Source: Limnomonas spitsbergensis (lineage: Eukaryota > Chlorophyta > Chlorophyceae > Chlamydomonadales). Taken from it: 64,000 nt of DNA. The stretch is taken from the NCBI GenBank assembly GCA_037349105.1, contig JAYJMM010000009.1, positions 2,583,001 to 2,647,000 on the forward strand. Direction: 5' to 3'. A model generated the notes under the pieces. The model had not been told where the DNA came from. It searched no databases and worked only from the letters and a program-made list of their open reading frames with translations. Shown here one piece after another: positions 12,700-63,803 of this stretch. Made by a program: the position numbers and the translations under genes. The stretch's first letter is position 1. Each line of letters begins with the position of its first letter.

Positions 12700-12775
12700 G
12701 ACTTCCACCCGTGGGACGGCCTCCGCTTCCTCTCCAGCGGTATGGACAACACTGTCAAAGTGTGGTCCCTGGAAG
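12700..12775 (+). CDS. EED/FIE exon A (first in window)
   Basis: It follows a pyrimidine-rich acceptor ending CACACTCAG and ends GAAG before GTGTGA. It encodes [20 protein letters not shown] then VWSLE, the WD repeat that in FIE carries the conserved CGMD/SGMD turn. Incoming phase 0, outgoing phase 1. Confidence 0.9.
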
Positions 12776-15700
12776 GTGTGAACAACAACCCCGGGTGTGA
12801 ACCATTACCCCAGGGCCGCTATGAGAGGCAACCCTGCTAGATGACCCGGGTGTGAGGTACCATTATGCAACACCCATAGCAACAGCCTGCAGTATATTAA
12901 CCTTCACCCCCCAAACCCCCGACCTGCGCTGCTCTCCCCACCCCACCCCACCCCCACTCCCTTCCCCTGGCAGGCGACATATGGCGTTTGTGAAAAAGTG
13001 TATGCTGTGTAGCAGCTGTAGTACCAAAAAGCAACACCAAGTGCAACAGCCCCTGCTGTCGTCATTTAACCTTCACCTCCTTCCCCACCACCACCCATAC
13101 GCTGCCTCCCTCCCCTAGCAGCTGTAGTACAAAGAAGCAAAACCAATGGCAACAACCTGTGCTGTCATTTAATGTTTACCCCCCCCCTCCCCCCCTTCCT
13201 TTACACACAGACCACATGGCTGTGGTGACCAAGTCCATGTCGTGGAGTAGCTGTAGTACATCAAAGTAACACCAACGGCAACAACCTGTGCCGTCATTTT
13301 ATGTTTACCCCCCCCCCCCCCCTCCCCTTTAACACTCCCTTCACACTCAGACCACATGGCTGTGGTGAACAAGTCCATGCTGTGGAGCAGCTGTAGTACA
13401 GCAAAGCAACACCAAGGGCAACAACTGCCGTCATCTAAATTTACCCCCCCCCCCCCCCCCTTCTCCCCTCCCCCTTCACACACAGACCACATGGCTGTGG
13501 TGAACAAGTCCATGTCGTGGAGCAGCCGCAACTGTGCCTTCCCCACGCCCTTCCTCCACAACCCCTGCTTTTCATCGACTCAGGTAAATGAAGGGGGGGG
13601 TGAATGAATGAGAGGGTGGGGGGGAGGTGTAAGCCCGCCAGGCTGTGCGACTAAAGGAGTAAGTACAGCTGCAGCTGTGCCTTCCTCACGCCCTTCCTCC
13701 ACAACCCCTGTTTTTCATTGACTCAGGTAAATGAAGGGGGGGGGAATGCCCAGCAAAAATCGGGTCGGTGCTTCTGCTGCTGCGCCCTTCTCATCCGCTT
13801 TCCCCCCCCCTGCTGTTCCTGGAATTGAATATCAACCGCGTGGTTTCCAATTATTCCGCCTGCTGCTGCGTTCAATCAAAATCACAATCCCCCCCTCCCC
13901 CCCCCCCACACACACATATGTTCCTGAAAGTGTCAACTGCGTGGTTTCCAATTATTCTGCCTGCTGCTGCGTTCAATCAAAATCACAATCTACCCTTCCC
14001 CTCAAAATCACAATCCCCCCCCCCCACACACACACACCCCTCTGTCCCTGAAGGTTCACGCCAACTCTGTGGTTTTCAGATCATATACCTGCTGCTCTGT
14101 TTCTCTAAACCACGTTCTTCCCCCCACCCACCCCCCTCTGTCCCTGAAGGTTCACGCCAACTACGTGGTTTTCAGATCATTTGCCTGCTGCTCTGTTTCT
14201 CTAAACCACGTTCTTCCCCCCACCCACCCCCCTCTGTCCCTATAGGTGCACGCCAACTACGTGGATTGCGTGAGGTGGCTTGGCAACCTGGTGAGAGGCA
14301 GGCCCGGACGCATGAAGCATTCGACCTGGTGGAATACAGGCCATAAACAGTAACCATATGAAAATGGTAACGGCGCGGATGTGGCTACAGCCCCAAGCTG
14401 CGTTGTTTCCTTAACATTCACGCCCCAATAGGGCGTAGCTTTCTTTCTTTCTAACCATATGAACCACCATGAACCACATTGACCACCAACCTATTGAGGG
14501 ACAGGCCATAATTCTGAAGCCCCAGATCCAGGCCAAGGGCATGCCCTGATTCCTTAACCCTAAGACATCTATCCTGAACCCTTAGCCCCCAACCTTGGGC
14601 CCATGTCCTAAGAAGATGGCTTTCCAGTATGGATGATGTTAAGGCATGAGGGTCGCAAGATCCCGCACGATCTCGCAAGATCCCGCCCGATCTCGCATGG
14701 TCCCGCAATATCTCGCAAGATCCCGCAATATCCCGTAAGGTACCGCAATATCTTGCAAGATCCCGCAAGATCTCGCAAGGTACCGCAATATCTCGCAAGA
14801 TCCCACAAGATCTCGCAATATACCGCAATATCTCGCAAGGCACCGCAAGATCTAGCAAGGTACCGCAATATCTCGCAAGGCACCACAAGATCTCGCAAGA
14901 TACCGCAATATCTCGCAAGATCCCGCAAGATCTCGCAAGGTACCGCAATATCTCGCAAGGCACCGCAATATCTCGCAAGGCACCGCAATATCTCGCAAGG
15001 TACCACAAGATCTCGCGTTCCCGCAAGATTCCGCAAGATCTCGCAAGATCCCGCAAGATCTCGCAAGATCTCGCAAGATCCCGCAAGATCTCGCAAGATC
15101 CCGCAAGATCTCGCAAGATTCCGCAAGATTCCGCAAGATCTCGCAAGATCCCGCAAGATCTCGCAAGGTCCCACAAGATCTCGCAAGGTTCAACAGAATC
15201 TCGCAAGGTCCCGCAAGATCTCGCAAGATCTCACCATAACCTGCAAGATCTTGCAAGATCTCACCATAACCTGCAAGATCTCGCAAGATCTTGCAAGATC
15301 CTGCAGGATATGGCAAGGTTCTGCCGCCGTTTATTTGTTATCGCCTTGCGCCAGCAGGCGTGTGAGCCCTAGGCTGGGGCCCGTGGGGACCAAATATTTC
15401 CTGGCCTACCGCTGTTTGCCCGAGCAGCAGGAGTGGCTACCCTAGGCTTCACAGACATAGGCCACGATGCAGCTGAAGTGCGATAAATAAAAACAAGCAT
15501 TGCACCTGTCTTCATGCCAGCTCTCCAATGCGTCCCACGCCTAATCCCTTAACCCTAAAAGAAAACGAGATAATGCAATCCATCATCTTGCAATCTAATT
15601 CAGTGGCAACGTTAGTCTTTTTTCGCTTTGCAAACTTGTTTTGAAAAATGCCGGGAGAAAGGGGAGAAATTGTGTTTTTCTCCCAGTGTACAATTTTTCC

Positions 15701-18700
15701 GCCTATCTGTTGAGGGGCGATCCCTGAAAACGAGATGTCACGATCCATCACCGTGCATTTAACAAAGGCGATGTCAGCCTTCTTCCGCCTGTTTTTAAGC
15801 ATTTTTGCTTTCCGTACTCATGTTTTTGACCTGGCTCTGAAGAGTGGCGATCCCTGAAAACGATACCCGGACCTCCCACCCCATCAGGTTTTACGCTAGA
15901 GCATCCATCCCAAACCCTAAATCTAAAACACTATCTCTAATCATTGGCATTGATCCGCTAGCCCTAAACCCCAAACCCAAAACGCTACATTGTCGACCCT
16001 AAATCGTGAACCCCAACTCCCAAACCCTACATCGTCAACCCCCAACCCCTTGATCCTGATATCTCCCCATTTCATCCGATCTCTCCCGATATCTTTACAG
16101 GTTCTATCCAAGAGCGTTGACTACGAGATCCTGCTATGGAAGCCGGACTGCAGCCAGGGCGGCACCGTAGCCACCACCTTCCACCGCCTGCAGGTGGGGT
16201 TTAGGGGGTTAGGGATCATTTGTGTAGGGTTTTATATGTTTACCTGATAAGGGTTGACCTTGGCGGCAAGGGCGACACCGTGGCCACCACCTTCCACCGC
16301 CTGCAGGTTGGGTTTAGGGGGTTAGGGATCATTTGTGTAGGGTTTTATATGTTTACCTGATAAGGATTGACCTTAGCGGCAAGGGCGGCACCGTGGCCAC
16401 CACCTTCCACCGCCTGCAGGTGGGGTTTAGGGGGGTTAGGGATCATTTGTGTAGGGTTTTATATGTTTACCTGATAAGGGTTGACCTTGGCGGCAAGGGC
16501 GGCACCGTGGCCACCACCTTCCACCGCCTGCAGGTGGGGTTTAGGGGGTTAGGGATCATTTGTGTAGGGTTTTATATGTTTACCTGATAAGGGTTGACCT
16601 TGGCGGCAAGGGCGACACCGTGGCCACCACCTTCCACCGCCTGCAGGTGGGGTTTAGGGGGTTAGGGATCATTTGTGTAGGGTTTTATATGTTTACCTGA
16701 TAAGGATTGACCTTAGCGGCAAGGGCGGCACCGTGGCCACCACCTTCCACCGCCTGCAGGTGGGGTTTAGGGGGGTTAGGGATCATTTGTGTAGGGTTTT
16801 ATATGTTTACCTGATAAGGGTTGACCTTGGCGGCAAGGGCAGCACCGTGGCCACCACCTTCCACCGCCTGCAGGTGGGGTTTAGGGGGTTAGGGATCATT
16901 TGTGTAGGGTTTTATATGTTTACCTGATAAGGGTTGACCTTGGCGGCAAGGGCGACACCGTGGCCACCACCTTCCACCGCCTGCAGGTGGGGGTTAGGGG
17001 GTTAGGGATCATTTGTGTAGGGTTTTATATGTTTACCTGATAAGGGTTGACCTTGGCGGCAAGGGCGACACCGTGGCCACCACCTTCCACCGCCTGCAGG
17101 TGGGGTTTAGGGGGTTAGGGATCATTTGTGTAGGGTTTTATATGTTTACCTGATAAGGGTTGACCTTGGCGGCAAGGGCAGCACCGTGGCCACTACCTTC
17201 CACCGCCTGCAGGTGGGGTTTAGGGGGTTAGGGATCATTTGTGTAGGGTTTTATATGTTTACCTGATAAGGGTTGACCTTGGCGGCAAGGGCAGCACCGT
17301 GGCCACCACCTTCCACCGCCTGCAGGTGGGGTTTAGGGGGTTAGGGATCATTTGTGTAGGGTTTTATATGTTAACCTGATAAGGGTTGACCTTGGCGGCA
17401 AGGGCAGCACCGTGGCCACCACCTTCCACCGCCTGCAGGTGGGGTTTAGGGGGTTAGGGATCATTTGTGTAGGGTTTTATATGTTTACCTGATAAGGGTT
17501 GACCTTGGCGGCAAGGGCAGCACCGTGGCCACTACCTTCCACCGCCTGCAGGTGGGGTTTAGGGGGGTAGGGATCATTTGTGTAGGGTTTTATATGTTTA
17601 CCTGATGAGGGTTGACCTTGGCGGCAAGGGCGGCACCGTGGCCACTACCTTCCACCGCCTGCAGGTGGGGTTTAGGGGGTTAGGGATCATTTGTGTAGGG
17701 TTTTATATGCTTACCTGATAAGGGTTGACCTTGGCGGCAAGGGCGGCACCGTGGCCACTACCTTCCACCGCCTGCAGGTGGGGTTTAGGGGGTTAGGGAT
17801 CATTTGTGTAGGGTTTTATATGTTTACCTGATAAGGGTTGACCTTGGCGGCAAGGGCGACACCGTGGCCACCACCTTCCACCGCCTGCAGGTGGGGTTTA
17901 GGGGGTTAGGGATCATTTGTGTAGGGTTTTATATGTTTACCTGATAAGGGTTGACCTTGGCGGCAAGGGCGGCACCGTGGCCACTACCTTCCACCGCCTG
18001 CAGGTGGGGTTTAGGGGGTTAGGGATCATTTGTGTAGGGTTTTATATGCTTACCTGATAAGGGTTGACCTTGGCGGCAAGGGCGGCACCGTGGCCACTAC
18101 CTTCCACCGCCTGCAGGTGGGGTTTAGGGGGTTAGGGATCATTTGTGTAGGGTTTTATATGTTTACCTGATAAGGGTTGACCTTGGCGGCAAGGGCGACA
18201 CCGTGGCCACCACCTTCCACCGCCTGCAGGTGGGGTTTAGGGGGTTAGGGATCATTTGTGTAGGGTTTTATATGTTTACCTGATAAGGGTTGACCTTGGC
18301 GGCAAGGGCAGCACCGTGGCCACCACCTTCCACCGCCTGCAGGTGGGGTTTAGGGGGTTAGGGATCATTTGTGTAGGGTTTTATATGTTTACCTGATAAG
18401 GGTTGACCTTGGCGGCAAGGGCGACACCGTGGCCACCACCTTCCACCGCCTGCAGGTGGGGGTTAGGGGGTTAGGGATCATTTGTGTAGGGTTTTATATG
18501 TTTACCTGATAAGGGTTGACCTTGGCGGCAAGGGCGACACCGTGGCCACCACCTTCCACCGCCTGCAGGTGGGGTTTAGGGGGTTAGGGATCATTTGTGT
18601 AGGGTTTTATATGTTTACCTGATAAGGGTTGACCTTGGCGGCAAGGGCAGCACCGTGGCCACTACCTTCCACCGCCTGCAGGTGGGGTTTAGGGGGTTAG

Positions 18701-21700
18701 GGATCATTTGTGTAGGGTTTTATATGTTTACCTGATAAGGGTTGACCTTGGCGGCAAGGGCAGCACCGTGGCCACCACCTTCCACCGCCTGCAGGTGGGG
18801 TTTAGGGGGTTAGGGATCATTTGTGTAGGGTTTTATATGTTAACCTGATAAGGGTTGACCTTGGCGGCAAGGGCAGCACCGTGGCCACCACCTTCCACCG
18901 CCTGCAGGTGGGGTTTAGGGGGTTAGGGATCATTTGTGTAGGGTTTTATATGTTTACCTGATAAGGGTTGACCTTGGCGGCAAGGGCAGCACCGTGGCCA
19001 CTACCTTCCACCGCCTGCAGGTGGGGTTTAGGGGGGTAGGGATCATTTGTGTAGGGTTTTATATGTTTACCTGATGAGGGTTGACCTTGGCGGCAAGGGC
19101 GGCACCGTGGCCACTACCTTCCACCGCCTGCAGGTGGGGTTTAGGGGGTTAGGGATCATTTGTGTAGGGTTTTATATGCTTACCTGATAAGGGTTGACCT
19201 TGGCGGCAAGGGCGGCACCGTGGCCACTACCTTCCACCGCCTGCAGGTGGGGTTTAGGGGGTTAGGGATCATTTGTGTAGGGTTTTATATGTTTACCTGA
19301 TAAGGGTTGACCTTGGCGGCAAGGGCGACACCGTGGCCACCACCTTCCACCGCCTGCAGGTGGGGTTTAGGGGGTTAGGGATCATTTGTGTAGGGTTTTA
19401 TATGTTTACCTGATAAGGGTTGACCTTGGCGGCAAGGGCGGCACCGTGGCCACTACCTTCCACCGCCTGCAGGTGGGGTTTAGGGGGTTAGGGATCATTT
19501 GTGTAGGGTTTTATATGCTTACCTGATAAGGGTTGACCTTGGCGGCAAGGGCGGCACCGTGGCCACTACCTTCCACCGCCTGCAGGTGGGGTTTAGGGGG
19601 TTAGGGATCATTTGTGTAGGGTTTTATATGTTTACCTGATAAGGGTTGACCTTGGCGGCAAGGGCGACACCGTGGCCACCACCTTCCACCGCCTGCAGGT
19701 GGGGTTTAGGGGGTTAGGGATCATTTGTGTAGGGTTTTATATGTTTACCTGATAAGGGTTGACCTTGGCGGCAAGGGCGGCACCGTGGCCACTACCTTCC
19801 ACCGCCTGCAGGTGGGGTTTAGGGGGTTAGGGATCATTTGTGTAGGGTTTTATATGTTTACCTGATAAGGGTTGACCTTGGCGGCAAGGGCAGCACCGTG
19901 GCCACTACCTTCCACCGCCTGCAGGTGGGGTTTAGGGGGTTAGGGATCACGTTAGGGGTCAACTGGTTTAAAGGGCTAGTGTTGATTTGTTTAGGGTTTG
20001 CTACGAGATGTTCTGTTGATAAGGTTTAGGGTTTGCTACGAGATGTTCTGTTGATAAGGGTTTAGGGTTTGCTACGAGATGTTCTGTTGATATGGGTTTA
20101 GGGTTTGCTACGAGATGTTCTGTTGATAAGGGTTTAGGGTTTGCTACGAGATGTTCTGTTGATAAGGGTTTAGGGTTTGCTACGAGATGTTCTGTTGATA
20201 AGGGTTTAGGGTTTTTTACGAGATGTTCTGTTGATAAGGGTTTAGGGTTTGCCACGAGATGTTCTGTTGATAAGGGTTTTGGGTTTGCTACAAGGGTGGC
20301 ACCGCTGGCACCACCTTCCACAGGCTGCAAGGAAGGTTTAGGGGTTCAGCAGGTTTAGGTTTTAGGCCATTGATAGGTTTAGTCTTACGTAAGATTTCAA
20401 TGCGTAAGCTCAAGTGCCAGTATTCCCCAATTTATGCCTGTGAACCCTCCCTTCATGCAGAAAATCATTCTCCTTGAGAGCGGGATGCTTTTTTTGCGCC
20501 GGGATTACCCCATTCCTTTCTTTTTTCTTCTTAAGGAGTTCTGTTTATATGTCGTTGCGTATCCTTCAACCCCGCCCCTGACCTTCCTCCTATTACGGGA
20601 ATGCGATGGATACAGCTACGTCGGGGTTGGGGAATTCTCCCATCCTTTCTCTCTTCTGTCCGTGAACCCTCCCCCCCCCCCGGCCCTCCCTCCCTCCCAC
20701 CGCTCCACCAGAAATTCCCAAACAAGTTTGGTTTGGAGACTCCACTGTTGCTGTCTTTCGTCCGCCAACCCTTAGCTCCCCCTTCCCAGCCCTCCCACTG
20801 CTCCACCAGTAAATCACCCCACCCCCACCCCTGGCCCTCCCCCCCCACATCCCCACCCCTGACCCTCCCCCCCCCACCCCCCCACCCCTGACCCTCCCTC
20901 CCCACATCCCCCCCCCACCCCCCCTGACCCTCCCTCCCCCCCCACATCCCCCCCCCCACCACCCCACCCTGACCCTCCCTCCCCCCCCCACCCCACCACC
21001 CCCACCACCCCACCCTGACCCTCCCTCCCCCCCCACCTCCCCCCCCCCCACCACCCCACCCCCACCACCCCACTACCCCCCTCCAAAATTTCTAAGCAGT
21101 TTGGTTCGGGGGTTAACCTTGTCTTGCTGTCTTTTGATCGTAAACCCTGACCTCACCCCCGGCCCCACCCTCCCCTGGTCCTGAAATCCCTCCCAGAAAT
21201 CCCCCCACGGCCTGACCACCCCTCAAGAAATCCCCCTCAGCCCAATCCTCCCCCTCGGTCCTGCCTTCCCCCCCCAGAACACCCCCCCCCGTCCTGCCTT
21301 CCCCCCTCCAGAAATTTCCACTGCCGGAGAGCAAAATGTGGTTTGTGCGCTTCTCCCTGGACAGCAGCTTCTCACTCCTGGCGTGTGGCAACAGGATGGG
21401 GAGGGTCTACCTGTACAACCCGCACGAGGTGTGAACTTGTGCATACAAGTGTGAACACTATACTCTGAAAGTGTGGACACATGAGGCAACATAATGGGAA
21501 GGGTGTATATGTGCAACTTGTACACTCAGTGAATTGATGCACACTTTGGTATATTGGACTCTGGAAGTGTGAACACGTGTGGGAGTTGGGCTACCTCCAC
21601 AACGGCATGAGCTGTGGTCGAGCCCTGCAAGTGTGAATCGGTGCTAACGCAAACAAATGAGGTTGGAATGGGTTATCAAAGTGTGAATTGGCTAAACATA

Positions 21701-25007: not shown

Positions 25008-25088
25008 TGTCATGATAGATGAAGGAGGGGGTAGATGGAGGATGGACCGAGGGACAAAGGTCGGGGGCAGGGGGAATCTTGTGGTGAA

Positions 25089-25165: not shown

Positions 25166-25189
25166 CGCGCCTTTACCATTCTTATGGTG

Positions 25190-25857: not shown

Positions 25858-25938
25858 ATGAAGGAGAAAGACGGGGGGAGATACAAGATGGACCGAAGGA
25901 CAAAGGTTGGACTGAGGGGGAGTCTTATGGTGATGACC

Positions 25939-25986
25939 CCCCCCCCTTCATACCTACTAATTTCCGTAGGTATGAAAGGGGGGTGG
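25939..25986. repeat. inverted repeat (hairpin)
   Basis: CCCCCCTTCATACCTAC and GTAGGTATGAAAGGGGGG form near-perfect 17-bp arms around a 7-base loop. It lies downstream of the EED gene. Confidence 0.85.
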
Positions 25987-30471: not shown

Positions 30472-30496
30472 GTCCCCAACATGAAATCAACCACAC

Positions 30497-52300: not shown

Positions 52301-55300
52301 CGCAATCTGGTAGCCACTGGAATCCTAGGGAGGCGGCGCAATAAAGTGTGGAACCAACTCCCACACCCCGTCACCCCTTGGTTGAAGTCAGAGCCATTTG
52401 TACTGTTTAATATAAAAGGGCCTGTCGTGTACCGCAAGATATAAAAGGGCCTGCCAGGCACCACCTCAACAATTGCCATCCACCACCCACTCCCTCCTTC
52501 AGTCCTTCCCCTTATCCAGTATCCACACTTTCATGCATCCACACTTCCCCACTTACCCGTGCTTGTACCACACGACACAAAGGGCCTGCCAGGCATTACC
52601 TTCAAGCCGCCATCCACCCCCCCCACTCCCTCCCACCCAGCAGTTCTGTTTATTAGGTCATGACAATACACTGATCACAAATATCCACACTCCCCCCTGT
52701 GCACACTTCCTCTCATCCAAACTTCCGTGTCTCCACACTTCCCCCCCTCCCCTGTGGTCTGGTCGAAGTCCAAGCCGTACTTACAATGCAAGATATAGAA
52801 GAGCCTGCCGGGCACAAGCTCGTAACCGCCGCCCCCCCTCCCCACTCCCCCTATTCACATTTCTCTTAAACCACACTTCCCTTTATTCCCACTTCCGTTG
52901 CTCCACACTTCCCCCCCCTCACCCGTGGTCTGGTTGAAGTCCAAGCCGTACGTATAATGCAAGATATAAAAGGGCCTGCCGGGCACCAGCTCGTAGCCGC
53001 CGTCCCACGGCGGCTGCGCAACAAAGTGTGGAATCATGTCCACATCTCGGAGACCTACGCCGTACATCGCCATCGCAAACGCGTACATCTCCTGAATCCA
53101 GCCCCACACCTGCATGGCAGAAAGTGTGCAATCAGATCCACAATCCAGATCCCGACCACGTGCAAGAGAACGGCAGAAAAGGAAACGCCGTGGATACGCT
53201 GGCCTGGACCGTACATTGACACGGGCTTAAACACATGTACAACTGTACCGCTGATTCATGCTCAGTTTAGCCACAGCGGCATCACCCGCTTCATGTCCTC
53301 AAAGGTACAACAAAGCAGTACACCAATGCGGTACAGCACAGCTGTACAATATGACGCCCACCTTCTTTGCCTCCTTGTCCTGGTACACGATCATGCTCAG
53401 GTTTAGCCACAGAGGCATGACCCGCTTCATGTCCTCGAAGGTGAGGAACGTCGGGCTGTTGCCGATTGGGAAGACCTTTTCCACCTCGATATCTGATTGA
53501 ATGCCAGCCAGCCTACCAGGCACAACGAGATTCCAGTTAGTTCAGTTGTTACAGCTGATTCAGTTGGTTCAGTTGTTTCAGCTGATTCAGTTGCTACAAC
53601 TAATTTAGTTGGTTTGGGTGTTTCAGTTGGACTGTTGCTGATCGGGAAGACCCTTTCCACCTCAACACCTGATTGAATGCCAGCCAGCCTACTTGGCACC
53701 AAGATATTTCAGTTTGCCTCGGGTTCACTGTCGCCTTCTCTACCCCTCCCCTCCCCTTCCCCCCCGACCTCTTGATGACGCCGGCTGTCTCCTTCCCTAC
53801 CCTTCCCCCCCTCCCCTTCCCTCCCCACCTCTTGATGACGCCGGCTGTCGCCTTCTCTACCCTGCCCCCTCCCCTTCCCCTCCCCAACTCTTGATGACGC
53901 CGGTTGTCGCCGTCTCTACCCCTCCCCCCTCCCATTTCCCCCCCACCTCTTGATGACGCCGGCTGTCTCCTTCTCAACCCTTCCCCCCTTCCCTTCCCCC
54001 CCCACCTCTTGATGACGCCGGCTGTCGCCATCTCTACCCCTACCCCCTCCCCTTCCCTCCCCTTCCCCCCCCCACCTCTTGATGACGCCGGCTGTCGCCT
54101 TCCCTACCCCTACCCCCTCCCCTCCCCCCCCCCCACCTCTTGATGACGCCGGCTGTCGCCTTCCCTACCTCTACCCCCTCCCCTTCCCCCCCCCACCTCT
54201 TGATGATGCCGGCTGTCGCCTTCTCTACCGGGTTCATGTATCCGAAGTTGAAGGCGGCCGGCTTGTCCCCGCGCATGAAGTTGGGGAGCGGACGCAGCAG
54301 GATGTGGTCCGGCTCTGCCATTAGCACGTAACGCTCGGGGATCACGGCGGTCTGAACCCACTCCACAAACTACAAACAGAAGGAAATGCTTAGTCAGAGG
54401 GAAATGCATTAGGCAGAGGGCGCAGCAGGATGTGGTCCGGCTCGAGCACGTAAAGCTCAGGGTTAACGTCTTCGCGACAGTTTGGAGCCACTCCACAAAC
54501 TGCCAACAGAGGGAAATGCATCATTGGAGTAAAGGGATAGCAGGGTCTGGATCCACTCTAAAAGTTGCATAATTGAGAAGACAATGCATTCGATATTTCA
54601 AAGCAAAGGGATCACGGAGGTCTGAACCCACTCCAAAAACCACCGCTCCACAAACTGCTCAAACCCCAAACCCTTAACCCACAAGCTGCAAACAGGTTGC
54701 GAGACAGCGCCCAACAATTCGTGAACAACACAAAACCAAGATAAGCTAGCAATGAATGGGGGAGGGAGGGGAGAGGAGAGGAATCACGGCAGTGTGGACC
54801 CACTCCACAAACTGCAAACAAAGGGATCCATATATTTCATATGTCTCATTAGAGCTTCAACACAAACCACGACTTGCATGGAGTACGTACAGGCGTACTG
54901 CTTTTTTAAGGGCCTATTGAGAACGATGCAGTCATCTTGGACCTCGTAGTGGGCATGAGATCCATTACCACTGTAGATCACAAAGCAGGCGTGAATACCG
55001 CCCACTCCCTCCCTCCCTCCCTCCCACCCCTGTGTTCCCTCCCTCACCGCATGCCAAGCAACGATTCTGATGCTCTTGACGCACAATGAAGGAGGTGACG
55101 CTCCTCCCACCCCCGTGTTCCCTCCCTCACCACATACAGGGCCGGACTGAGGACAATGAAGACTTCACTACGCCCCCCCCCCCTCCTCCTCCCTTCTTAC
55201 CGCATAAGGTCGATTGAGAACAATGTAGTCGTCGTGGATCAGCATTTTGGGGGGCATTGGATCCACCACCACCGTCGGGATCTCGTCCATAATGTTGTCA

Positions 55301-58300
55301 GGCTGCCCGGAGTGACTGAGGCAGCAGGGAGTAGGGAGCAGATGTTTGGTCAGGGTTCAGGGCAGCCAGGGTTTAGATGCAGGGTTCAGGGGAGCAGGGT
55401 TCAGGGGAGCAGGGTTCAGGAGGCAGGATGAAGGGTTTGAGTCCAGGGTGCAGGGGAAATAGATGAAGGGTTTATGTCTCGCCCATGATATTACCAGCTT
55501 AACCGGAGTGACCAGGGGAGCAGGGTAAAGAGTTCAGGGTCTGGATTTCGGCCATTATCTCCCAAGCCTTCTTTACGTACGTGACTGGGGTGCAGGTCGA
55601 TGATTCAGGGCCACGGGGTTGGGGTGACAACTGACAAGCAGCGGGAGCTGGAGCCAGAGCCTTGGTGGTAAGGAGCAGGTGAATGATCATGCGGTGCCAT
55701 GCAGACCAGACAGGGCCATGCACAACAGAGAGCACCATGCCGGCTAGACAGCGCCATGCAAACCAGCAGCACCATGCAAACCAGACAAAGCCAAGCAGCT
55801 TGACACAGCGCCATGCGAACCATGCAGAACCAACCTATACCATATAGCACCATGCAGCACAAAACAGTGCCATGTAAATTATAGAGCACCATGCAGACTA
55901 GACAGAGCCATGCAACCTGGGCAGAGCCATGCAGGTCATGCAGCGCCATGCAACAAAATATCCAAGGCCTCCTGCCCCCCTGCAAACTATGCATGGCCAT
56001 GCTGTTCCTCTCCCCCCACTTTAGCTGGTCAGTCTATACACCCATCTCTTGCAACGCCATGCGTCAACATTCAGTGCCATGCGAACCATACAGCATAACA
56101 GCACCATGCGGGAAACACACACTGGCTTTCCCACAACTCACAGGAGATGTGTGAATCTACCGACCTCCCAGAACCCATGAGGTGCCATGCAAACCATACA
56201 AAACCCATGCAGCGCCATCCATCAACGCATACTGACTTTCCTACTACTCACAGCAGGCGTGTAAATCCACCCATCTCACAGAGCCCTGCGGCGCAATGCA
56301 AAACCCATGCAGCGCCATGCAGTGAGCAGCACGCACTGACTAACTTATGACTCACAGCACACGTGTAAATCCAACCGTCTCACAGAGCCCATGCAGCGCC
56401 ATGCAGAACCCATGCAGCACCATGCAGTAAGCAACACACGCTGACTTCCTTAAGACTCACAGAACACTTGTAAATCCACCCATCTCTCAGAGCCCATGCG
56501 GTGCCATGCAAAAATCCATGCAGCGTCATGCATCGACGCACACTGACTTCCTTATGAATCACAGCACACGTGTAAATCCACCCGTCTCACAGAGCCCATG
56601 CGGTGCCATGTAAAAAACCATGCAGCGTCATGCATCGACGCACACTGACTTCCTTATGACTCACAGCACACGTGTAAATCCACCCATCTCTCAGAGCCCA
56701 TGCGGTGCCATGTAAAAAACCATGCAGCGTCATGCATCGACGCACACTGACTTCCTTATGACTCACAGCACACGTGTAAATCCACCCATCTCTCAGAGCC
56801 CATGCGGCGCCATGTAAAAAACCATGCAGCGTCATGCATCGACGCACACTGACTTCCTTATGACTCACAGCACACGTGTAAATCCACCCATCTCTCAGAG
56901 CCCATGCGGCGCCATGTAAAAAACCATGCAGCGTCATGCATCGACGCACACTGACTTCCTTATGACTCACAGCACACGTGTAAATCCACCCATCTCTCAG
57001 AGCCCATGCGGCGCCATGCAAAAACCATGCAGCGTCATGCATCGACGCGCACTGACTTCCTTATGACTCACAGCACACGTGTAAATCCACCCATCTCTCA
57101 GAGCCCATGCGGCGCCATGCAAAAACCATGCAGCGTCATGCATCGACGCACACTGACTTCCTTATGACTCACAGCACACGTGTAAATCCACCCATCTCTC
57201 AGAGCCCATGCGGCGCCATGTAAAAAACCATGCAGCGTCATGCATCGACGCACACTGACTTCCTTATGACTCACAGCACACGTGTAAATCCACCCATCTC
57301 TCAGAGCCCATGCGGTGCCATGTAAAAAACCATGCAGCGTCATGCATCGACGCACACTGAGTTCCTTATGACTCACAGCACACGTGTAAATCCACCCATC
57401 TCTCAGAGCCCATGCGGCGCCATGTAAAAAACCATGCAGCGTCATGCATCGACGCACACTGACTTCCTTATGACTCACAGCACACGTGTAAATCCACCCA
57501 TCTCTCAGAGCCCATGCGGCGCCATGTAAAAAACCATGCAGCGTCATGCATCGACGCACACTGACTTCCTTATGACTCACAGCACACGTGTAAATCCACC
57601 CATCTCTCAGAGCCCATGCGGCGCCATGCAAAAACCATGCAGCGTCATGCATCGACGCGCACTGACTTCCTTATGACTCACAGCACACGTGTAAATCCAC
57701 CCATCTCTCAGAGCCCATGCGGCGCCATGCAAAAACCATGCAGCGTCATGCATCGACGCACACTGACTTCCTTATGACTCACAGCACACGTGTAAATCCA
57801 CCCATCTCTCAGAGCCCATGCGGCGCCATGTAAAAAACCATGCAGCGTCATGCATCGACGCACACTGACTTCCTTATGACTCACAGCACACGTGTAAATC
57901 CACCCAACTCTCAGAGCCCATGCGGTGCCATGCAAAAATCCATGCAGCGCCATGCATCGACGCACACTGACTTCCTTATGACTCACAGCACACGTGTAAA
58001 TCCACCCATCTCTCAGAGCCCATGCGGCGCCATGCATCAACGCACACTGACTTCCTTTTGACCCACAGCAGGCATATAAATCCACCCAACTCTTAGAGCC
58101 CATGCGGTGCCATGCAGATCCCATGCAGCGCCATGCAACGACGCACAGTAAGTTCCTTATGACTCACAGCAGGCGTGTAAATCCACCCATCTCTCAGAGC
58201 CCATGCGGCACCATGCAGAACCCATGCAGCGCCATTCAGTAAGCAACACACACTGACTTCCTTAACACTCACTTAGACGTGTAAATCCACCCGTCTCACA

Positions 58301-61300
58301 GATCCCATGCAGTGCCATGCAGATCCCATGCAGTGCCATGCAGATCCCATGCAGTGCCGTGCAAACCATGCAGAACCCACACAGCAACACACCCTGGCTT
58401 CCCTACAAGTCACAGTAGACGGGTGAATCCACCGATCTCACAGAAGGCCATGCGGCGCGGTGCAGCGCCATGCAAGCCATGCAGAACCAATGCACCCCAT
58501 GCGGCGCCATGCAAGCCACGCACCCCCATGCGGAGCCATGCAGCAAGGCGCACCGCCTTCCTTTCAACTCACAGTAGATGTGTAAATCCACCCATCTCAC
58601 AGAGCACACGAGGCGCCATGCAAAGAACCATGCAATAACCCATGCAGCGCCATGCAGCCATGCACACCGTTTTCCTTTCAACTCACAGTAGACGTGTGAG
58701 TCCACCCATCTGACAGAGCTCATGTGGCGCCATGCAAAGAACCATGCAATAACCCATGCAGCCATGCACACCGTCTTCCTTTCAACTCACAGTAGACGTG
58801 TGAATCCACCCATCTGACAGAGCTCATGTGGCGCCATGCAAAGAACCATGCAATAACCCATGCAGCCATGCACACCGTCTTCCTTTCAACTCACAGTAGA
58901 CGTGTCAATCCACCCATCTGACAGAGCTCATGTGGCGCCATGCAAAGAACCATGCAATAACCCATGCAGCCATGCACACCGTCTTCCTTTCAACTCACAG
59001 TAGACGTGTAAATCCACCCATCTGACAGAGCTCATGTGGCGCCATGCAAAGAACCATGCAATAACCCATGCAGCGCCATGCAGCCATGCACACCGTTTTC
59101 CTTTCAACTCACAGTAGACGTGTGAGTCCACCCATCTGACAGAGCTCATGTGGCGCCATGCAAAGAACCATGCAATAACCCATGCAGCCATGCACACCGT
59201 CTTCCTTTCAACTCACAGTAGACGTGTGAATCCACCCATCTGACAGAGCTCATGTGGCGCCATGCAAAGAACCATGCAATAACCCATGCAGCCATGCACA
59301 CCGTCTTCCTTTCAACTCACAGTAGACGTGTCAATCCACCCATCTGACAGAGCTCATGTGGCGCCATGCAAAGAACCATGCAATAACCCATGCAGCGCCA
59401 TGCAGCCACACACACCGTCTTCCTTTCAACTCACAGCAGGCGTGTGAAGCCACCCATCTCACAGAACCCATGATGCTTGCACTTGGCCTTGACTTTCTTC
59501 CAGTGATAGTAATGGATGCGCGTCTGCCACTGGTTGTACACACCCTGGGAATCAGAAAGTGTGTGTGGGGGGTAAGTTCACACCCTCGGAATCAGAAGGT
59601 GTGGGGGGGATTAAGTTCACACCCTGGGAATTAAAAGGTGGGGTTGGGGGTATAATCACACCCGGTGAATCAGAAAGTGTGTGTGTGTGTGTGGGGGGGT
59701 AAGTTCACACCCTGGGAATCAGAAAGTGTGTGTGTGGGGGGGGATATAGTTCACATTCTGTGAATCATAAGGTGTGTGTAGACTGTGTAGGGAATTAAGT
59801 TCACACCCTGTGAATCAGAAAGTGTGTGTAGGGGAGGGGTTAAGTACAAGCATTTCCTACCGAATGATTTTAGCATCACAAGTGGAAGCAAACCGCAACA
59901 ACTGCGAGCGGCAGGCGTATTCGTTTGTGTCCGTCACCCTTCCTCGGCGAAGTGATTGTGTGGTACATCTGCGGTACATTGACGCCCTCTTTGAGCTTCC
60001 GCAGCGTCGTGTCCACCAGCTGGGACGGAATGCAGGCAGTCCAGCCCACCACCAGGCCCACCACATGGCCCAGCATTTGGCCCACCACCCGGCCCACCAC
60101 CCAGCACAGCACCCGGCCCACCTGCACAGAAGTGACTGTGCGCTATACCTGCAGCTCCTTGACACCCTCTTTGAGCTTCCGCAGCAAAGTGTACACCAGA
60201 CGGGACGGAATGCAGGCAGCCTCGCCTACCACCCAGCCCACCATCCCAGCCCACCACCCGGCTCACCACATGGCCTGGCACATGGCCTGCCACCCGGCAC
60301 ACTACCCTGCCCACTACTGAGCCCACCAACCAGCCCACCACCCGGCCCACCTGCACAGATGTGATTGTGTGGTACATCTGCGGCACCTTGACGCCCTCCT
60401 TTAGCTTCCGCAGCGTCGTGTCCACCAATCTGGATGGGTCAAAGGGCGGAGACGCGCCCCCTGGGCCGTGCCTTAGCCAAGAATGGGTTGCATTCTTCTG
60501 CTTGCGTTCGTTCTGGTAGGTTTCAGCAGAGCAGGGTAGGCAGCAGAAAAGGGGGGGGTGTGATCAGAATACTCTGAATTCATGTGGGGGGTAAGAGGTG
60601 GCCTGTCCCCTGGGCCATGAATGGGTTATGTTCATCAGCATGCGTATGCCCTGATACGGAAGCTGCGGGGCAGGGCAGGCAGCAGCAGAAGGGGGGGTGT
60701 TGTGATGAAAGGACTGTGACTTCATGTGGAGAAGAGGCGGCCTGTCTCCTGGGCCATGAATGGGTTATATTCTTCAGCTTGCGTTGGCCCTGTGGGGAAG
60801 CAGGCAGGTAGCAGCAGAGCGGGGGGGGGGGGGGGGCGTGATGAGAGTACTGTGAATTCGTGTGGGAGGGCAGCGGCACCCCTGGGCCATGAATGGGTTA
60901 CAAATTTGCCAGCTTGCGCACACTCTGATACAGAAGCAGCAAGGCAGGCAGCGGCAGAGTGGGGGGGGGGATGTCGTGATGAGACTGCTGTGGCTTCATA
61001 TGGGAGGGCAGCGGCAGAGGGGGGGGGGATGTCGTGATGAGACTGCTGTGGCTTCATATGGGAGGGCAGCGGCAGAGGGGGGGGGGGATGTCGTGATGAG
61101 ACTGCTGTGGCTTCATATGGGAGGGCAGCGGCAGAGGGGGGGGGGGGGGGATGTCGTGATGAGACTGCTGTGGCTTCATATGGGAGGGCAGCGGCAGAGG
61201 GGGGGGGGGGATGTCGTGATGAGACTGCTGTGGCTTCATATGGGAGGGCAGCGGCGGCAGAGGGGGGGGGGGGGGATGTCGTGATGAGACTGCTGTGGCT

Positions 61301-63803
61301 TCATATGGGAGGGCAGCGGCAGAGGGGGGGGGGGGGGATGTCGTGATGAGACTGCTGTGGCTTCATATGGGAGGGCAGCGGCAGAGTGGGGGGGGGGATG
61401 TCGTGATGAGACTGCTGTGGCTTCATATGGGAGGGCAGCGGCAGAGTGGGGGGGGGGATGTCGTGATGAGACTGCAGTGGCTTCATATGGGAGGGCAGCG
61501 GCAGAGGGGGGGGGGGGGATGTCGTGATGAGACTGCTGTGGCTTCATATGGGAGGGCAGCGGCAGAGTGGGGGGGGGGATGTCGTGATGAGACTGCTGTG
61601 GCTTCATATGGGAGGGCAGCGGCAGAGGGGGGGGGGGGATGTCGTGATGAGACTGCTGTGGCTTCATATGGGAGGGCAGCGGCAGAGGGGGGGGGGGGAT
61701 GTCGTGATGAGACTGCTGTGGCTTCATATGGGAGGGCAGCGGCAGAGGGGGGGGGGGGATGTCGTGATGAGACTGCTGTGGCTTCATATGGGAGGGCAGC
61801 GGCAGAGTGGGGGGGGGGATGTCGTGATGAGACTGCTGTGGCTTCATATGGGAGGGCAGCGGCAGAGGGGGGGGGGGGATGTCGTGATGAGACTGCTGTG
61901 GCTTCATATGGGAGGGCAGCGGCAGAGGGGGGGGGGGGATGTCGTGATGAGACTGCTGTGGCTTCATATGGGAGGGCAGCGGCAGAGGGGGGGGGGGGAT
62001 GTCGTGATGAGACTGCTGTGGCTTCATATGGGAGGGCAGCGGCAGAGGGGGGGGGGGGATGTCGTGATGAGACTGCTGTGGCTTCATATGGGAGGGCAGC
62101 GGCAGAGTGGGGGGGGGGGATGTCGTGATGAGACTGCTGTGGCTTCATATGGGAGGGCAGCGGCAGAGGGGGGGGGGGGATGTCGTGATGAGACTGCTGT
62201 GGCTTCATATGGGAGGGCAGCGGCAGAGGGGGGGGGGGGGATGTCGTGATGAGACTGCTGTGGCTTCATATGGGAGGGCAGCGGCAGAGGGGGGGGGGGG
62301 GGATGTCGTGATGAGACTGCTGTGGCTTCATATGGGAGGGGCGGTGGCGCGCTGTGAAGAATTTCGGCCCTGAAGAAGCCTCTTCCGCGTCTCAGCCGCA
62401 CACGATAGGCATTCAGCATCTCAGTAAGGTCCCGCTGGTCCACCCAACCACCGGCCAAATTCAATTGATTTTGTTAGGTATTGAACATAAATGACACTCT
62501 TGCCCCTCTTCTTACCTACACGCGATAGGCATACAACGTCTCAGTAAGGTCCACCCAACCACTGGCCAAATTCAAAAATGGTTTAATAGGTATTGAAAAT
62601 AAAGGACACTCTTGTCCCTCATCTTACCTACACGCGATTCGCATGCAACGTCTCAGTCAAGTCCCGCTGGTCCACCCAACCACCGGCCAATTTCAAAAAA
62701 ATGACTTGATAGGTATTGAAATAAAAAAACTCGCCCCTCTTCTCACCTTTTGACACGATAGGCGTATAACGTCTCAGTAAGGTCCAGGTCCAGAAGCGTC
62801 CCACTCGTCCATCCAAGCACTAGCCAAATACAAAAAAGGGTTTGGTGCGCAACAAAAATAAATGAAACTCTTGCCCCTCTTCTCACCCTCACACGATACG
62901 CATACAGCGTCTCAGTAAGGTCCAAATCCAGCAGCGTTCCACTCGTCCACCCAACCAGCACACCCTTGTCGTCCAACCCAATATCCTTGGGCGCGATAAT
63001 CGTTGGATAAGCTAGCCGCTTCAGCCTGGCAGGGGGAGATGTGAAGTAACAGGTGACAGGTGGCAGGTGACATGTGGCAGGTGACAGGTGGCAGGTGACA
63101 GGTGGCAGGTGACAGGTGGCAGGTGACAGGTGGCAGGTGACAGGTGGGTGCAAGGTCTGATGCTCATTATAGATAAACGTTTGCTGCATGGTATGACTGC
63201 ATGGCATGAGTGTGTGTCATGAGCACATGTCATGAGTGCATGTCATGATTGCATGCATGCATGCATGTATGCATCTGCGCACAGATGACTGTATGGCATG
63301 AGTGCATGCGTGCATGGCAAGACTGTATGGGTGCATGGCATGAGTGTATGGCTCCTCCTACGGCCTCACCAGCATTGCTTGTACGAGTCGCCACAGGTCT
63401 CCTTGCACCCACACCACACCCACACGTTGCACGAGCCCTGGTCCTCGCCCATGCCCTGCGCTTTGGAGCACTGCTCGCAGCATTCGCCAGCCGAGTCGAG
63501 CTTGTTGATGCGTCCGTCGTTCACAGCATTGCCCCACATTTCCGTATTGCGGTACACGTAGCACTTGCCGCCCTGAATGCTCTCCGAAGTTGGCGAAGAG
63601 AGGGTATCGGGGACCAGATGCATCGCCTTTTTCAGCGCCGAAGTGACCAGCTTGAATTCGGTCGCGAAGCGGTGCCTAGCATCCATTTCCTGCGCGTGAT
63701 GCGTGCTGGCGCCGTGCAGAGCATGCAGCGAATACAGCGTCGCGAGCATCATGCATGCGGCCGCGAGCATCGTCACTGTCACGTAAGGCTGCTTGTTGGC
63801 CAT
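49256..63803 (-). CDS. hydroxyproline O-arabinosyltransferase (GT95/HPAT family), complete, 10 exons
   Basis: Exons in coding order: 63803-63370, 63025-62887, 60512-60351, 59544-59435, 55315-55201, 54369-54197, 53512-53362, 53109-52923, 50589-50460 and 49394-49256; 1740 bases, 579 residues, phases consistent throughout. The family transfers L-arabinofuranose from UDP-arabinofuranose to hydroxyproline of cell-wall glycoproteins in the Golgi. Residues ~8-28 are a type II membrane anchor. Residues ~78-145 form a Cys-rich domain (CYVYRNTEMWG, ECCEQC, CGCKETCGDSYKQCW). The GT region has YNQWQTRIHYY (248-258), EMGGFTRLLHSGQPD (274-288), MDEIPTVVVDP (291-301), YIVLNRPYAFVEW, LMAEPDH with the acidic motif EPDH at 339-342, PIGNSP (393-398), QPPWD (460-464) and HYTYG (479-483), then INEATAAIP. 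ATG at 63803 precedes the anchor directly. Confidence 0.93.
49425..49470 (-). repeat. copy of HPAT exon 10 acceptor edge
   Basis: TTTATAGACCTGGATCAGCA occurs at the real acceptor (about 49385) and again about 46 bases upstream in the gene's sense, duplicating the acceptor and the first exon bases. Confidence 0.88.
49560..49985. repeat. about 117-bp tandem array, 4 units, in HPAT intron 9
   Basis: The unit contains GGCCGAGCCCTGAACC, TCAGCAGCTTA, and AGGTGGGATCAGAGTAGAGG. No exon similarity recognised. Confidence 0.88.
49985..50459 (-). repeat. copies of HPAT exon 9 3' edge and donor within CCCACC-rich repeats
   Basis: CACCTGATGAGTTCACAACC and ..AAGTGCACGGTGTC near 50117-50155, plus shorter CACC(C)GATGAGCACGGTGTC copies near 50227 and 50346, match the complement of the exon 9 end (DTVHFDLGWELI) and its GTGAG donor. 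A related fragment is at 50000. They are joined by CCCACCCACTGTACTGCC units. Confidence 0.82.
50460..50589 (-). CDS. HPAT exon 9
   Basis: It encodes AVLMDKVGDFHFDKRDHDPK, then PVPRNLQFPADTVHFDLGWE and LI, ending AG before GTGAGA. It matches the GEWRFDKR..PPKNL region of HPATs. Confidence 0.92.
50800..50940 (-). repeat. HPAT exon 8 partial copy, left part
   Basis: On the minus strand it shows similarity to exon 8: a stretch reading YEVVPGRPFCMLH, after GTGGAATAAAATCCCACA for the PHF region. Its 3' end is interrupted at 50941 by a TIR element and continues at 51540. Confidence 0.78.
50943..51537 (+). mobile_element. 595-bp TA-flanked TIR DNA transposon, non-autonomous
   Basis: The ends are CCGTAGTATCAGT and its exact complement ACTGATACTACGG, each abutting TA, and imperfect similarity extends to ~44 bp (TTTCGTTTTAT then TTCGTTTTTT). 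It contains an AT-rich border and a 103-residue basic open frame (51156-51467, opening IIDLDPDVEIKGE) unlike any transposase I know. It lies in HPAT intron 8 inside a duplicated exon-8 fragment. A TA target duplication suggests the Tc1/mariner or a similar superfamily, unproven. Confidence 0.82.
51540..51625 (-). repeat. HPAT exon 8 partial copy, right part
   Basis: GGGCCTGCCGGCAAAATCCC then GTAG..CAGGGGGACGGCGCACAAAGTGTGGAA continues the exon-8-like copy beyond the transposon. Confidence 0.72.
51600..51858 (-). repeat. 29-bp array derived from HPAT exon 8 fragment
   Basis: About nine units of AGTGTGGAACCACCCTCCAT then TATCCCTT. The AAGTGTGGAATCA core is the complement of the exon-8 PHF codons and follows an exon-8 copy, so a piece of the copy has expanded further. 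Confidence 0.88.
51912..51987 (+). repeat. dispersed hairpin element, copy 4
   Basis: GCCCATGCCCCGCACTG, then TTAACCTTCACGTCCC, loop TTC, GGGGCGTAG and TCTTTCTTTC. It lies within HPAT intron 8. Confidence 0.72.
51985..52860 (-). repeat. further partial copies of HPAT exon 8 3' region
   Basis: Copies near 51990-52110, 52150-52240, 52275-52385, 52425-52475, 52580-52620 and 52790-52835 share GGGCCTGCC(G/A)GGCACC (complement of VPGRPF) and often the AAGTGTGGAAT segment (complement of PHF). Some also keep GGTTGAAGTCCAAGCC, the complement of GLDFNQ. They are diverged and separated by C-rich sequence. Confidence 0.85.
52923..53109 (-). CDS. HPAT exon 8
   Basis: It encodes VWGWIQEMYAFAMAMYGVGL, then VAQPPWDGGYELVPGRPFYI and LHYTYGLDFNQTT, ending with one base before GTGAGG. 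Partial copies fill the next intron. Confidence 0.93.
53250..53312 (-). repeat. copy of HPAT exon 7 internal segment
   Basis: TTAGCCACAGCGGCATCACC then CGCTTCATGTCCTCAAAGGT copies the exon-7 part encoding FEDMKRVMPLWLN, placed downstream of the exon 7 donor. Confidence 0.88.
53362..53512 (-). CDS. HPAT exon 7
   Basis: It encodes LAGIQSDIEVEKVFPIGNSP, then TFLTFEDMKRVMPLWLNLSM and IVYQDKEAKK, donor GTGGGC. The PIGNSP and W(L/M)N(V/L)S motifs match GT95. Confidence 0.93.
53528..53710 (-). repeat. copy of HPAT exon 7 5' edge with a CAGTTG repeat
   Basis: GGGAAGACCCTTTCCACCTC then ACCTGATTGAATGCCAGCC (53648-53693) copies the start of exon 7 and its acceptor region. Between it and the exon lies an 8-10 unit imperfect CAGTTGTTTCAGCTGATT repeat (53530-53625). 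Confidence 0.88.
53722..54190 (-). repeat. about 58-bp array, 8 units, copying HPAT exon 6 3' edge and donor
   Basis: On the minus strand each unit has GAGAAGGCGACAGCCGGCGT then CATCAAGAGGTGGGGG, reproducing exon 6 (EKATAGIIK, here usually Val for one Ile) and its GTGGGG donor, then a purine-rich G/A tract. Adjacent to the real exon end at 54197. Confidence 0.95.
54197..54369 (-). CDS. HPAT exon 6 (EPDH motif)
   Basis: It encodes FVEWVQTAVIPERYVLMAEP, then DHILLRPLPNFM and AAFNFGYMNPVEKATAGIIK, ending AG before GTGGGG. It contains the probable metal or nucleotide-sugar site (EPDH). Confidence 0.94.
54400..54830 (-). repeat. four copies of HPAT exon 6 acceptor and 5' edge
   Basis: CCACTCCACAAACTG or variants at about 54489, 54554, 54627/54648 and 54800 copy the exon 6 start (FVEW) and acceptor. 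The copy at 54418-54500 extends further, to GGATGTGGTCCGGCTC (complement of EPDH). Confidence 0.85.
54885..55178 (-). repeat. copies of HPAT exon 5 3' edge
   Basis: At 54905-54965 the minus strand reads DDCIVLNRPL, a copy of DDYIVLNRPY. Two shorter copies with CCCTCACC(G/A)CAT and GGACTGAGGACAATGAAGAC occur near 55030 and 55125. They lie in intron 5. Confidence 0.8.
55201..55315 (-). CDS. HPAT exon 5
   Basis: Acceptor GCCTCAG; it completes the split Leu codon and encodes HSGQPDNIMDEIPTVVVDP, then HDDYIVLNRPYA, donor GTAAGA. An exact GT95 block. Confidence 0.94.
55365..55625 (-). repeat. copies of HPAT exon 5 5' edge and GGGTTCAG repeat
   Basis: GTCTCGCCCATGATATTACC then AGCTTAACCGGAGTGACC (55473-55515) parallels the complement of the exon 5 start (SGQPDNIMDEI); a weaker copy is at 55548-55595. 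A GGAGCAGGGTTCAGG repeat occupies 55368-55435. Confidence 0.75.
55680..56110. repeat. imperfect GCCATGCA-rich repeat
   Basis: AGCACCATGCAGACCAGACA-like units of about 20-30 bp recur. They merge into the 102-bp array. Confidence 0.75.
56110..59430 (-). repeat. array of about 32 copies (100-113 bp) of HPAT exon 4 3' edge and donor
   Basis: On the minus strand each unit has GAGATGGGTGGATTTACACG then TGTGCTGTGAGT, matching the exon 4 end (EMGGFTRLL) and its GTGAGT donor, followed by about 75 bases of intron including CATGGCGC and GTGCGTCGATGCATGACG. Two subfamilies: 102-bp units at 56140-58440 and 100-113-bp units at 58440-59430 nearer the exon. Long minus-strand open frames here are artefacts. 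Confidence 0.96.
59435..59544 (-). CDS. HPAT exon 4
   Basis: It encodes GVYNQWQTRIHYYHWKKVKA, then KCKHHGFCEMGGFTRL (phase 2), donor GTGAGT. It carries the GT95 WQTR and EMGGFTR motifs. Its last ~25 bases and donor seed the largest array in the gene. Confidence 0.94.
59556..59850 (-). repeat. six copies of HPAT exon 4 acceptor region
   Basis: TTCACACCCTGGGAATCAGA then AAGTGTGTG recurs every ~50-65 bases, duplicating the complement of the acceptor (TGATTCCCAG) and the first exon 4 bases, separated by TG/G runs. Confidence 0.9.
59936..60220 (-). repeat. two copies of HPAT exon 3 3' part
   Basis: The copy at 59941-60040 reads QLVDTTLRKLKEGVNVPQMY then HTITS, nearly identical to exon 3. The copy at 60120-60215 reads SRLVYTLLRKLKEGVKEL with a stop. 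Both retain the exon end; the second keeps CTGTGCAG with GTGGGCC. CCCACCACCCGGCCCACCAC repeats separate them. Confidence 0.92.
60351..60512 (-). CDS. HPAT exon 3
   Basis: Acceptor CTACCAG; it encodes NERKQKNATHSWLRHGPGG, then LVDTTLRKLKEGVKVPQMYH and TITSVQ before GTGGGC. The YHTITS block begins the GT95 fold. Confidence 0.88.
60575..60955 (-). repeat. three copies of HPAT exon 3 acceptor and 5' edge
   Basis: ATGAATGGGTTATATTCTTC then AGCTTGCGTTGGCCCTG and relatives (about 60613, 60757 and 60887) copy the exon 3 start; the minus strand reads QRKLKNITHSWPR against ERKQKNATHSWLR. Each keeps the upstream GCTGC/G-run segment. Confidence 0.88.
60956..62338. repeat. 60 to 64-bp array, about 22 units
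   Basis: Units of GATGTCGTGATGAGACTGCT, GTGGCTTCATATGGGAGGGC, AGCGGCAGAG and a G-run of 9-15. The unit resembles the intron part of the exon-3 acceptor copies (GCGTGATGAGAGTACTGTGA, GGGAGGGCAGCGGC), so it seems a secondary expansion that lost the exon piece. Open frames on both strands are artefacts. Confidence 0.97.
62375..62860 (-). repeat. four partial copies of HPAT exon 2 3' edge
   Basis: CACGATAGGC(A/G)T then AACGTCTCAGTAAGGTCC occurs near 62400, 62522, 62632 and 62755, spaced about 116-125 bp. The best copy (62745-62830) reads LGWTSGTLLDLDLTETLYAY, almost exon 2 itself; the others read WVDQRDLTETL with shortened 5' sides. Confidence 0.92.
62887..63025 (-). CDS. HPAT exon 2
   Basis: It encodes LKRLAYPTIIAPKDIGLDDK, then GVLVGWTSGTLLDLDLTETL and YAYRVR, donor GTGAGA. 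It links the Cys-rich module to the catalytic region; no family motif assigned. Confidence 0.88.
63040..63150. repeat. 14-bp tandem repeat beside HPAT exon 2 acceptor
   Basis: Units of GTGACAGGTGGCAG over about 100 bp in intron 1. The complement CCTGCCA echoes the acceptor CCCTGCCAG, so it may have been seeded there (inference). Confidence 0.9.
63165..63355. repeat. GCATG-rich simple repeat in HPAT intron 1
   Basis: GCATGCATGCATGTATGCAT and GTGCATGGCATGAGTG motifs. Not obviously derived from exon 1. Confidence 0.75.
63370..63803 (-). CDS. HPAT exon 1: membrane anchor and Cys-rich domain
   Basis: It opens MANKQPYVTVTMLAAACMML and ends SYKQCW (phase 2) before GTGAGG. It supplies the Golgi signal-anchor, a stem, and about ten Cys in 65 residues. 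Higher plant HPATs lack this Cys-rich module; its resemblance to PAN/Apple-type folds is only a suggestion. Confidence 0.9.

Follow-up and report, generated by a model that had tools for sequence, protein, structure and literature searches.

In the snow alga Limnomonas spitsbergensis, introns contain direct duplications of nearby sequence, for the most part head to tail when well preserved. A unit that spans an exon-intron border takes along a short piece of the exon end together with the splice site and some intron sequence, and the intron thereby gains a decoy exon edge that subsequently degenerates. This process is most likely the same as the "sequence/exon stuttering" of chicken, with a separate origin in a green alga, and we consider it likely that a general tandem duplication of non-coding DNA overruns into exons and is kept where splicing survives. 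The stretch analysed (the window, 64,000 nucleotides, C9:2583001-2647000) belongs to an assembly of 260,226,709 bases in 124 contigs. For this isolated and sequenced species, a nuclear assembly of 260,248,090 bp (124 contigs, 54.15% GC) with a mean intron length of 788 bp has been published together with RNA-seq and full-length transcripts (IsoSeq) (PMC11228838).

Gene models in the window were built from homology and a self-made exon chainer (Table 1). The EED gene on the + strand has a single open frame across eight joined exons, and residues 7-187 of its 236 match solved EED chains (E 2e-36); the last exon lies outside the homology alignment and was placed from its frame and splice signals alone. 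With a typed EED N-terminus as the query, upstream matches were obtained at C9:2571589-2571690 (E 6e-5) and C9:2572967-2573059 (E 5e-4), the latter continuing in frame into the first EED exon of the window. The HPAT gene on the - strand comprises eight exons and matches the Pfam family HPAT over residues 218-468 (E 1e-97). Its best homologue among the matches listed, a Chlamydomonas eustigma protein, is 64% identical with 96% of the length aligned, and the alignment is gap-free at six of the seven exon junctions. The start of HPAT exon 3 was placed at 60512 after this alignment, with the frame remaining open, and the HPAT part of the locality and block statistics (62 copied edges) uses a start that differs from this final position. 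A Pro/Ala-rich gene, modelled without homology support, was entered for two donor tests only. The window also contains a 637-aa open frame on the - strand (28573-30486) with a 111-bp (37-aa) repeat and Pfam matches to FAST_1 and DUF6832, which we take to resemble an octotricopeptide-repeat protein.

We scored a copy wherever 18 or more of the 24 exon-edge bases matched the edge's own intron without gaps. EED and HPAT together have 94 such copies, derived from 13 of their 28 exon edges and lying in 10/14 introns (5/7 in each gene), whereas dinucleotide shuffles of the EED and HPAT control reached 18/24 in 1/560 cases. The sequence-only reading that introns carry copies of the adjoining exon edge is thus confirmed for both genes, and the arrays it named are present (EED, 113 bp x 33.6; Pro/Ala-rich gene, ~107 bp; HPAT exon 4, ~102-104 bp; HPAT exon 6, ~60 bp). 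Its statement that nearly every intron is affected overstates the frequency, which is 10/14, or 10/15 if the 22.6-kb EED intron that precedes the exon at 12700 and crosses the left end of the window is counted. This intron consists almost entirely of a 25-bp array (22.3 kb, ~890 units), which reaches position 12411 of the window. TRF arrays account for 62% of the intron bases in the window. Edge copies are not restricted to splice sites, since the stop-codon edge of EED has one copy downstream of the gene (20/24), where 20 shuffles reached at most 17.

Table 1. Exons, arrays, and exon-edge copies in the window (positions relative to its first base).
Feature	Position	Strand	Basis or remark
25-bp tandem array	1..12411	+	right end of 22.3-kb array C9:2573065-2595411
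EED exon, first in window	12700..12775	+	open frame and homology
140-bp x3 array, acceptor-edge copies of next exon at 13211 and 13351	13117..13526	+	
EED exon	13486..13583	+	open frame and homology
Single donor-edge copy (22/24) of exon 13486-13583	13703..13726	+	
96-bp x2.5 array, acceptor-edge copies of exon 14246-14290 at 14054 and 14150	14029..14264	+	
EED exon	14246..14290	+	open frame and homology
EED exon (exon D of the sequence-only reading)	16101..16193	+	open frame and homology
113-bp x33.6 array, end of exon D plus intron start	16156..19949	+	
EED exon	21312..21428	+	open frame and homology
EED exon	21941..21991	+	open frame and homology
Single acceptor-edge copy (18/24) of exon 22769-22849	22655..22678	+	
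EED exon	22769..22849	+	open frame and homology
89-bp array and older copies, 7 acceptor-edge copies of last EED exon	24142..24904	+	
Last EED exon with stop	24858..25007	+	open frame, beyond homology alignment
107-bp array 3' of EED stop, then one stop-codon-edge copy at 25835-25858	25187..25860	+	
Pro/Ala-rich gene, ~107-bp array (37256-38174), 10 donor-edge copies of exon ending 37104	37050..38174	+	
Pro/Ala-rich gene, later exon, donor edge copied once in following intron	38967..40183	+	at the tested threshold, query placed 3 nt beyond junction
HPAT exon 8	52923..53109	-	homology alignment
HPAT exon 7	53362..53512	-	homology alignment
~60-bp array, 7 intronic donor-edge copies of HPAT exon 6	53728..54229	-	
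HPAT exon 6	54197..54369	-	homology alignment
HPAT intron 5, 3 acceptor-edge copies of exon 6	54370..55200	-	
HPAT exon 5	55201..55315	-	homology alignment
102-104-bp arrays, 29 intronic donor-edge copies of HPAT exon 4	56200..59472	-	
HPAT exon 4	59435..59544	-	homology alignment
HPAT intron 3, 2 exon 3 donor-edge copies within longer partial exon 3 copies	59545..60350	-	
HPAT exon 3	60351..60512	-	homology alignment
HPAT intron 2, 4 donor-edge copies of exon 2 and 1 acceptor-edge copy of exon 3	60513..62892	-	
HPAT exon 2	62893..63025	-	homology alignment
HPAT exon 1 from ATG	63370..63803	-	homology alignment

Outside the window, 28 loci were surveyed, consisting of 19 ten-kb WD40 loci and nine chaperonin loci. 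These loci were picked by coding matches rather than by repeats and form a non-random sample of two protein families; the WD40 loci were chosen by hand from a list of places, and the chaperonin loci are nine of the places listed, with C61 among those left out. All were modelled with our own exon chainer, which at the survey setting recovered 7/8 EED exons exactly (EED being in its training) and 3/8 HPAT exons (starts 6/8, ends 3/8), and which calls many edge copies as exons. The chaperonin exons were curated by hand, omitting the larger part of L035 and a section of L032, where exons were not placeable. Because a misplaced border turns intron into "edge", the curated chaperonin set is the safer one; of the 113 introns modelled in the WD40 loci, 77 have at least one flanking exon without a Pfam match.

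Across all outside loci, copies were found in 45/174 introns, at 50/342 edges, and in 18/28 loci, and the copy-bearing loci are spread over 13 of the 20 sampled contigs. The curated chaperonin loci have copies at 19/126 edges and in 17/63 introns (shuffles 1/2520), and the WD40 loci at 31/216 edges and in 28/111 introns (shuffles 1/1220, with window edges included in the control). Among WD40 introns with a Pfam match in both exons, 4/36 donor and 8/36 acceptor edges are copied, and at a stricter threshold of at least 22/24, copies remain in 15/174 outside introns, compared to shuffles at 0/342 edges. The proposal of a recurrent process thus holds across this sample of the genome, with the window being richer in copies than the outside loci (10/14 vs. 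45/174 introns; Fisher P 0.0009). TRF arrays make up 18.7% of the pooled intron bases elsewhere vs. 2.0% of the exon bases and occur in 67/174 outside introns, while the median outside intron has none. In one WD40 gene (L017), which resembles CIAO1, the gene finder runs the 3' part into a long tandem array coding for WAGLG, most probably intronic or downstream repeats read as exon.

The copies are local and direct: 62 of 370 edges are copied in their own intron vs. 2/301 on the wrong side of the exon, and no inverted copies were found in the window or the outside loci. Most copied edges (56/62) have one to four copies, the maximum being 34, and are mostly identical at 18-23 of 24 bases, with a median spacing to the nearest copy of 121 bp for donors and 118.5 bp for acceptors. 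Copy-bearing introns are long (window included: 0/23 below 200 bp, 4/29 at 200-399 bp, 24/64 at 400-799 bp, and 27/72 at 800 bp or more), which supports the link to intron expansion drawn from the sequence. Where copies are well kept, a head-to-tail arrangement prevails. Non-tandem copying had been hinted at by ungapped blocks, which spanned 0.8 or more of the spacing in 12/62 cases, but was rejected after gapped extension, by which 13/18 of the best-kept copies (22-24/24) and 19/44 of the older ones reached this length, indicating that decay accounts for much of the short-block signal. Blocks become shorter as the identity of the edge declines (Spearman 0.42, P 0.0007). As a point against tandem duplication, the block remains below 0.8 of the spacing in 5/18 well-kept copies. 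Among the copies examined, GT is retained at 45/70 donor and AG at 42/62 acceptor copies, somewhat above the prediction from the flanks (411/560 and 321/496 per base, respectively); as indels lower the flank identity, we make no claim from this.

The sequence-only reading had further described the duplication as junction-anchored, which is not supported by the distribution of copies along exons and introns. In a profile that scored 24-base windows by whether the intron holds another copy of them (outside loci, introns of at least 200 bp), the copy rate inside the exon was 0.008-0.017 at 48-96 nt from the border, 0.037 at 36 nt, 0.081 at 24 nt, and 0.123 at 12 nt, and reached 0.168 (50/297) at the exon edge. 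In the intron, it was 0.116-0.168 over the first 66 nt, 0.155-0.217 at 78-246 nt, and 0.288 in the interior. The exon interior is lowest and the intron interior highest in the pooled sample and in each of three subsets, for which the rates at the edge, the first 66 nt, and the intron interior are 0.198, 0.139, and 0.300 (curated chaperonin loci), 0.176, 0.137, and 0.529 (WD40 introns flanked by Pfam exons on both sides), and 0.464, 0.490, and 0.807 (EED and HPAT). No significant peak of the copy rate at the junction was found in the pooled outside profile or the subsets. Since the intron interior exceeds the junction (0.29 vs. 0.17), the process appears to be a general one that stops at the junction instead of starting there.

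A scenario in which splice sites start the duplication (e.g. through R-loops or transcription-coupled breaks) and thereby provide the main route of intron growth is unlikely, although several observations speak for it. In the outside loci, the edge is mildly, but not significantly, above the adjoining intron (50/297 vs. 32/276; Fisher P 0.09); however, a slight excess would arise in any case, given that the copy in the exon is free of drift, while weak anchoring would give the same result. The 25-bp array of the 22.6-kb EED intron begins 2 nt into the donor, but this intron holds no exon-edge copy at the 24-base edge screen. Finally, the exon part of the units is short (median 42.5 nt, IQR 37-49, maximum 63; 18 well-kept copies) for units of ~60-270 bp, and this overlap is narrower than expected from uniform unit placement (KS P 0.0001). 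Such a narrow overlap may reflect breakage or a mutational preference near junctions, or it may result from selection against decoys large enough to pass as exons. In the most explicit form of the former idea, the borders would be active start points, with a transcription- or splicing-coupled cut or re-priming ~40-45 nt into the exon for units of any length; introns would thus extend outward, beginning at their splice sites, and a duplicated acceptor would persist only if its unit includes a complete 3' splice site. We regard this form, too, as doubtful.

Donors and acceptors differ in the length of the units that straddle them. A spacing below 76 bp was found for 0/34 acceptor-straddling and 6/29 donor-straddling units, compared to 48/92 mid-intron medians and 22/54 in the intron adjoining acceptors. 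The phase-corrected expectation below 76 bp is 23-35%, from which acceptors deviate (P <= 0.0003, n = 33) and donors do not do so significantly; the 76-bp limit was picked after seeing the data, and edges were treated as independent in all P values. A 60-bp limit gives the same outcome at acceptors (expected 0.30, observed 0).

These patterns can be accommodated if, as we favour, tandem duplication is a general process that overruns into exons. Duplications would arise anywhere in non-coding DNA via slippage or unequal exchange, and selection would remove those units that lie wholly within exons as well as those whose extra splice site gets used. Border-crossing units would be tolerated because splicing at the outermost sites still yields the old mRNA. 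Acceptor-crossing units would in addition need their own branch point and pyrimidine tract and hence a certain length, since a short unit would place a decoy AG between the branch point and the true AG, whereas donor-crossing units would be exempt. Old events would stay visible longest at the exon edge, because the copy in the real exon does not drift.

From the sequence, it looks unlikely that the copies are true alternative exons. In tandem exon duplication with alternative splicing, exon sequence is likewise duplicated in the neighbouring intron, and here some units include much of an exon (HPAT exon 3), the gene finder calls many copies as exons, and the spacing to the nearest copy is a multiple of three at 31/63 edges (P 0.011). 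However, a similar share was found for intron interiors (40/93; Fisher P 0.51), both values being above 1/3, and we dropped the apparent preference of edges for such spacings. Furthermore, each copy has one edge, mostly 30-50 nt, the wrong side of the exon is almost never copied, and only 12/62 added stretches combine a length divisible by three with some open frame. A tandem exon duplication yielding alternative or mutually exclusive exons is therefore very improbable.

An assembly artefact, with long-read or polishing errors inflating the arrays, is hardly plausible either. The assembly was produced from continuous long reads and polished repeatedly (PMC11228838), and array lengths may be inexact. 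Nevertheless, the low copy numbers and the divergence between copies described above make assembly error unlikely, and one copy at 108-bp spacing is common to paralogous loci on different contigs.

Introner elements are dispersed families of repeated units with splice sites in the introns of many genes. The units found here resemble them in bearing splice sites and in being present in many genes. Nevertheless, mobile elements, introner-like or otherwise, are the least credible source of the copies: 0/244 exon edges (window edges included) had a match in the introns of another locus, the EED unit (113 bp), the only one for which the whole genome was searched, had 34/34 matches within its own array in a search that ignores very common words, and no unit families common to unrelated genes were seen among the sequences tested.

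The sequence-only reading was not aware of a description in this form, but a matching anatomy was published for the dot chromosomes of chicken in February 2026 under the name exon or sequence stuttering (Genome Biol Evol, PMC12954441). According to that report, stuttering affects 115 genes and 236 introns, 190 of which are on dot chromosomes, and it is reported in birds, mentioned for some gerbil genes, and tied to high GC (PMC12954441). As in the alga, a lateral part of the exon with the donor or acceptor site is copied through the adjoining intron, the tandem repeats are imperfect, tens to hundreds of bases long, and strictly local, intron-only arrays occur too, and the copy maximum is of similar order (44 in chicken vs. 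34 here) (PMC12954441). What we found in L. spitsbergensis corresponds to this in its local direct tandem repeats in introns, its splice-site-bearing edge copies, and its strictly local origin. In contrast, the host is a green alga and not a vertebrate, and the association with GC-rich dot microchromosomes, which is reported but not defining in chicken, is absent here, with copies on 13/20 contigs of a genome with 54% GC (PMC12954441, PMC11228838). Intraspecies variation in intron length is a main feature in chicken (PMC12954441), whereas the alga was compared from one assembly. Tandem genomic duplication has also been proposed as a source of intron change for potato RdRp (PMC4974935) and Drosophila (PMC2891723), but in these reports a new intron is proposed to arise, while in the alga existing introns appear to grow. 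Our search of literature listings revealed no stuttering-type account in algae and no further paper using the sequence or exon stuttering names beyond PMC12954441.

New here is thus stuttering in a green alga, on many contigs, and without GC-rich microchromosomes, together with tests of its mechanism. That the process also shapes introns in such a host suggests that neither a vertebrate background nor these chromosomes are required. The rate of stuttering, the choice among dozens of near-identical donors, and the link to intron growth are measurable in L. spitsbergensis. Exon edges serve as index fossils, as one copy is held by selection and duplications are datable against it. Annotation is affected as well, since a simple gene finder takes many decoy edges for exons.

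Turnover of the copies can be seen in paralogous pairs on different contigs (L031/L038 on C99/C39, and L033/L039), for which 17 introns were compared. Projected exon borders hit AG and GT throughout, except for one GC donor, and exon identity is 81%-96%. Intron positions are common to the paralogues in 17/17 of these introns, a comparison confined to this one species, whereas the introns differ in length and are mostly unalignable over their full length; intron 1 of L033/L039 can be aligned. Edge copies are present in both members in four cases, in one member in four, and in neither in nine. The copy at 108-bp spacing shared by two paralogous loci probably predates the gene duplication. L020 and L022 (C36/C119) form a further paralogous pair on different contigs, and the occurrence of such gene pairs suggests segmental or whole-genome duplication.
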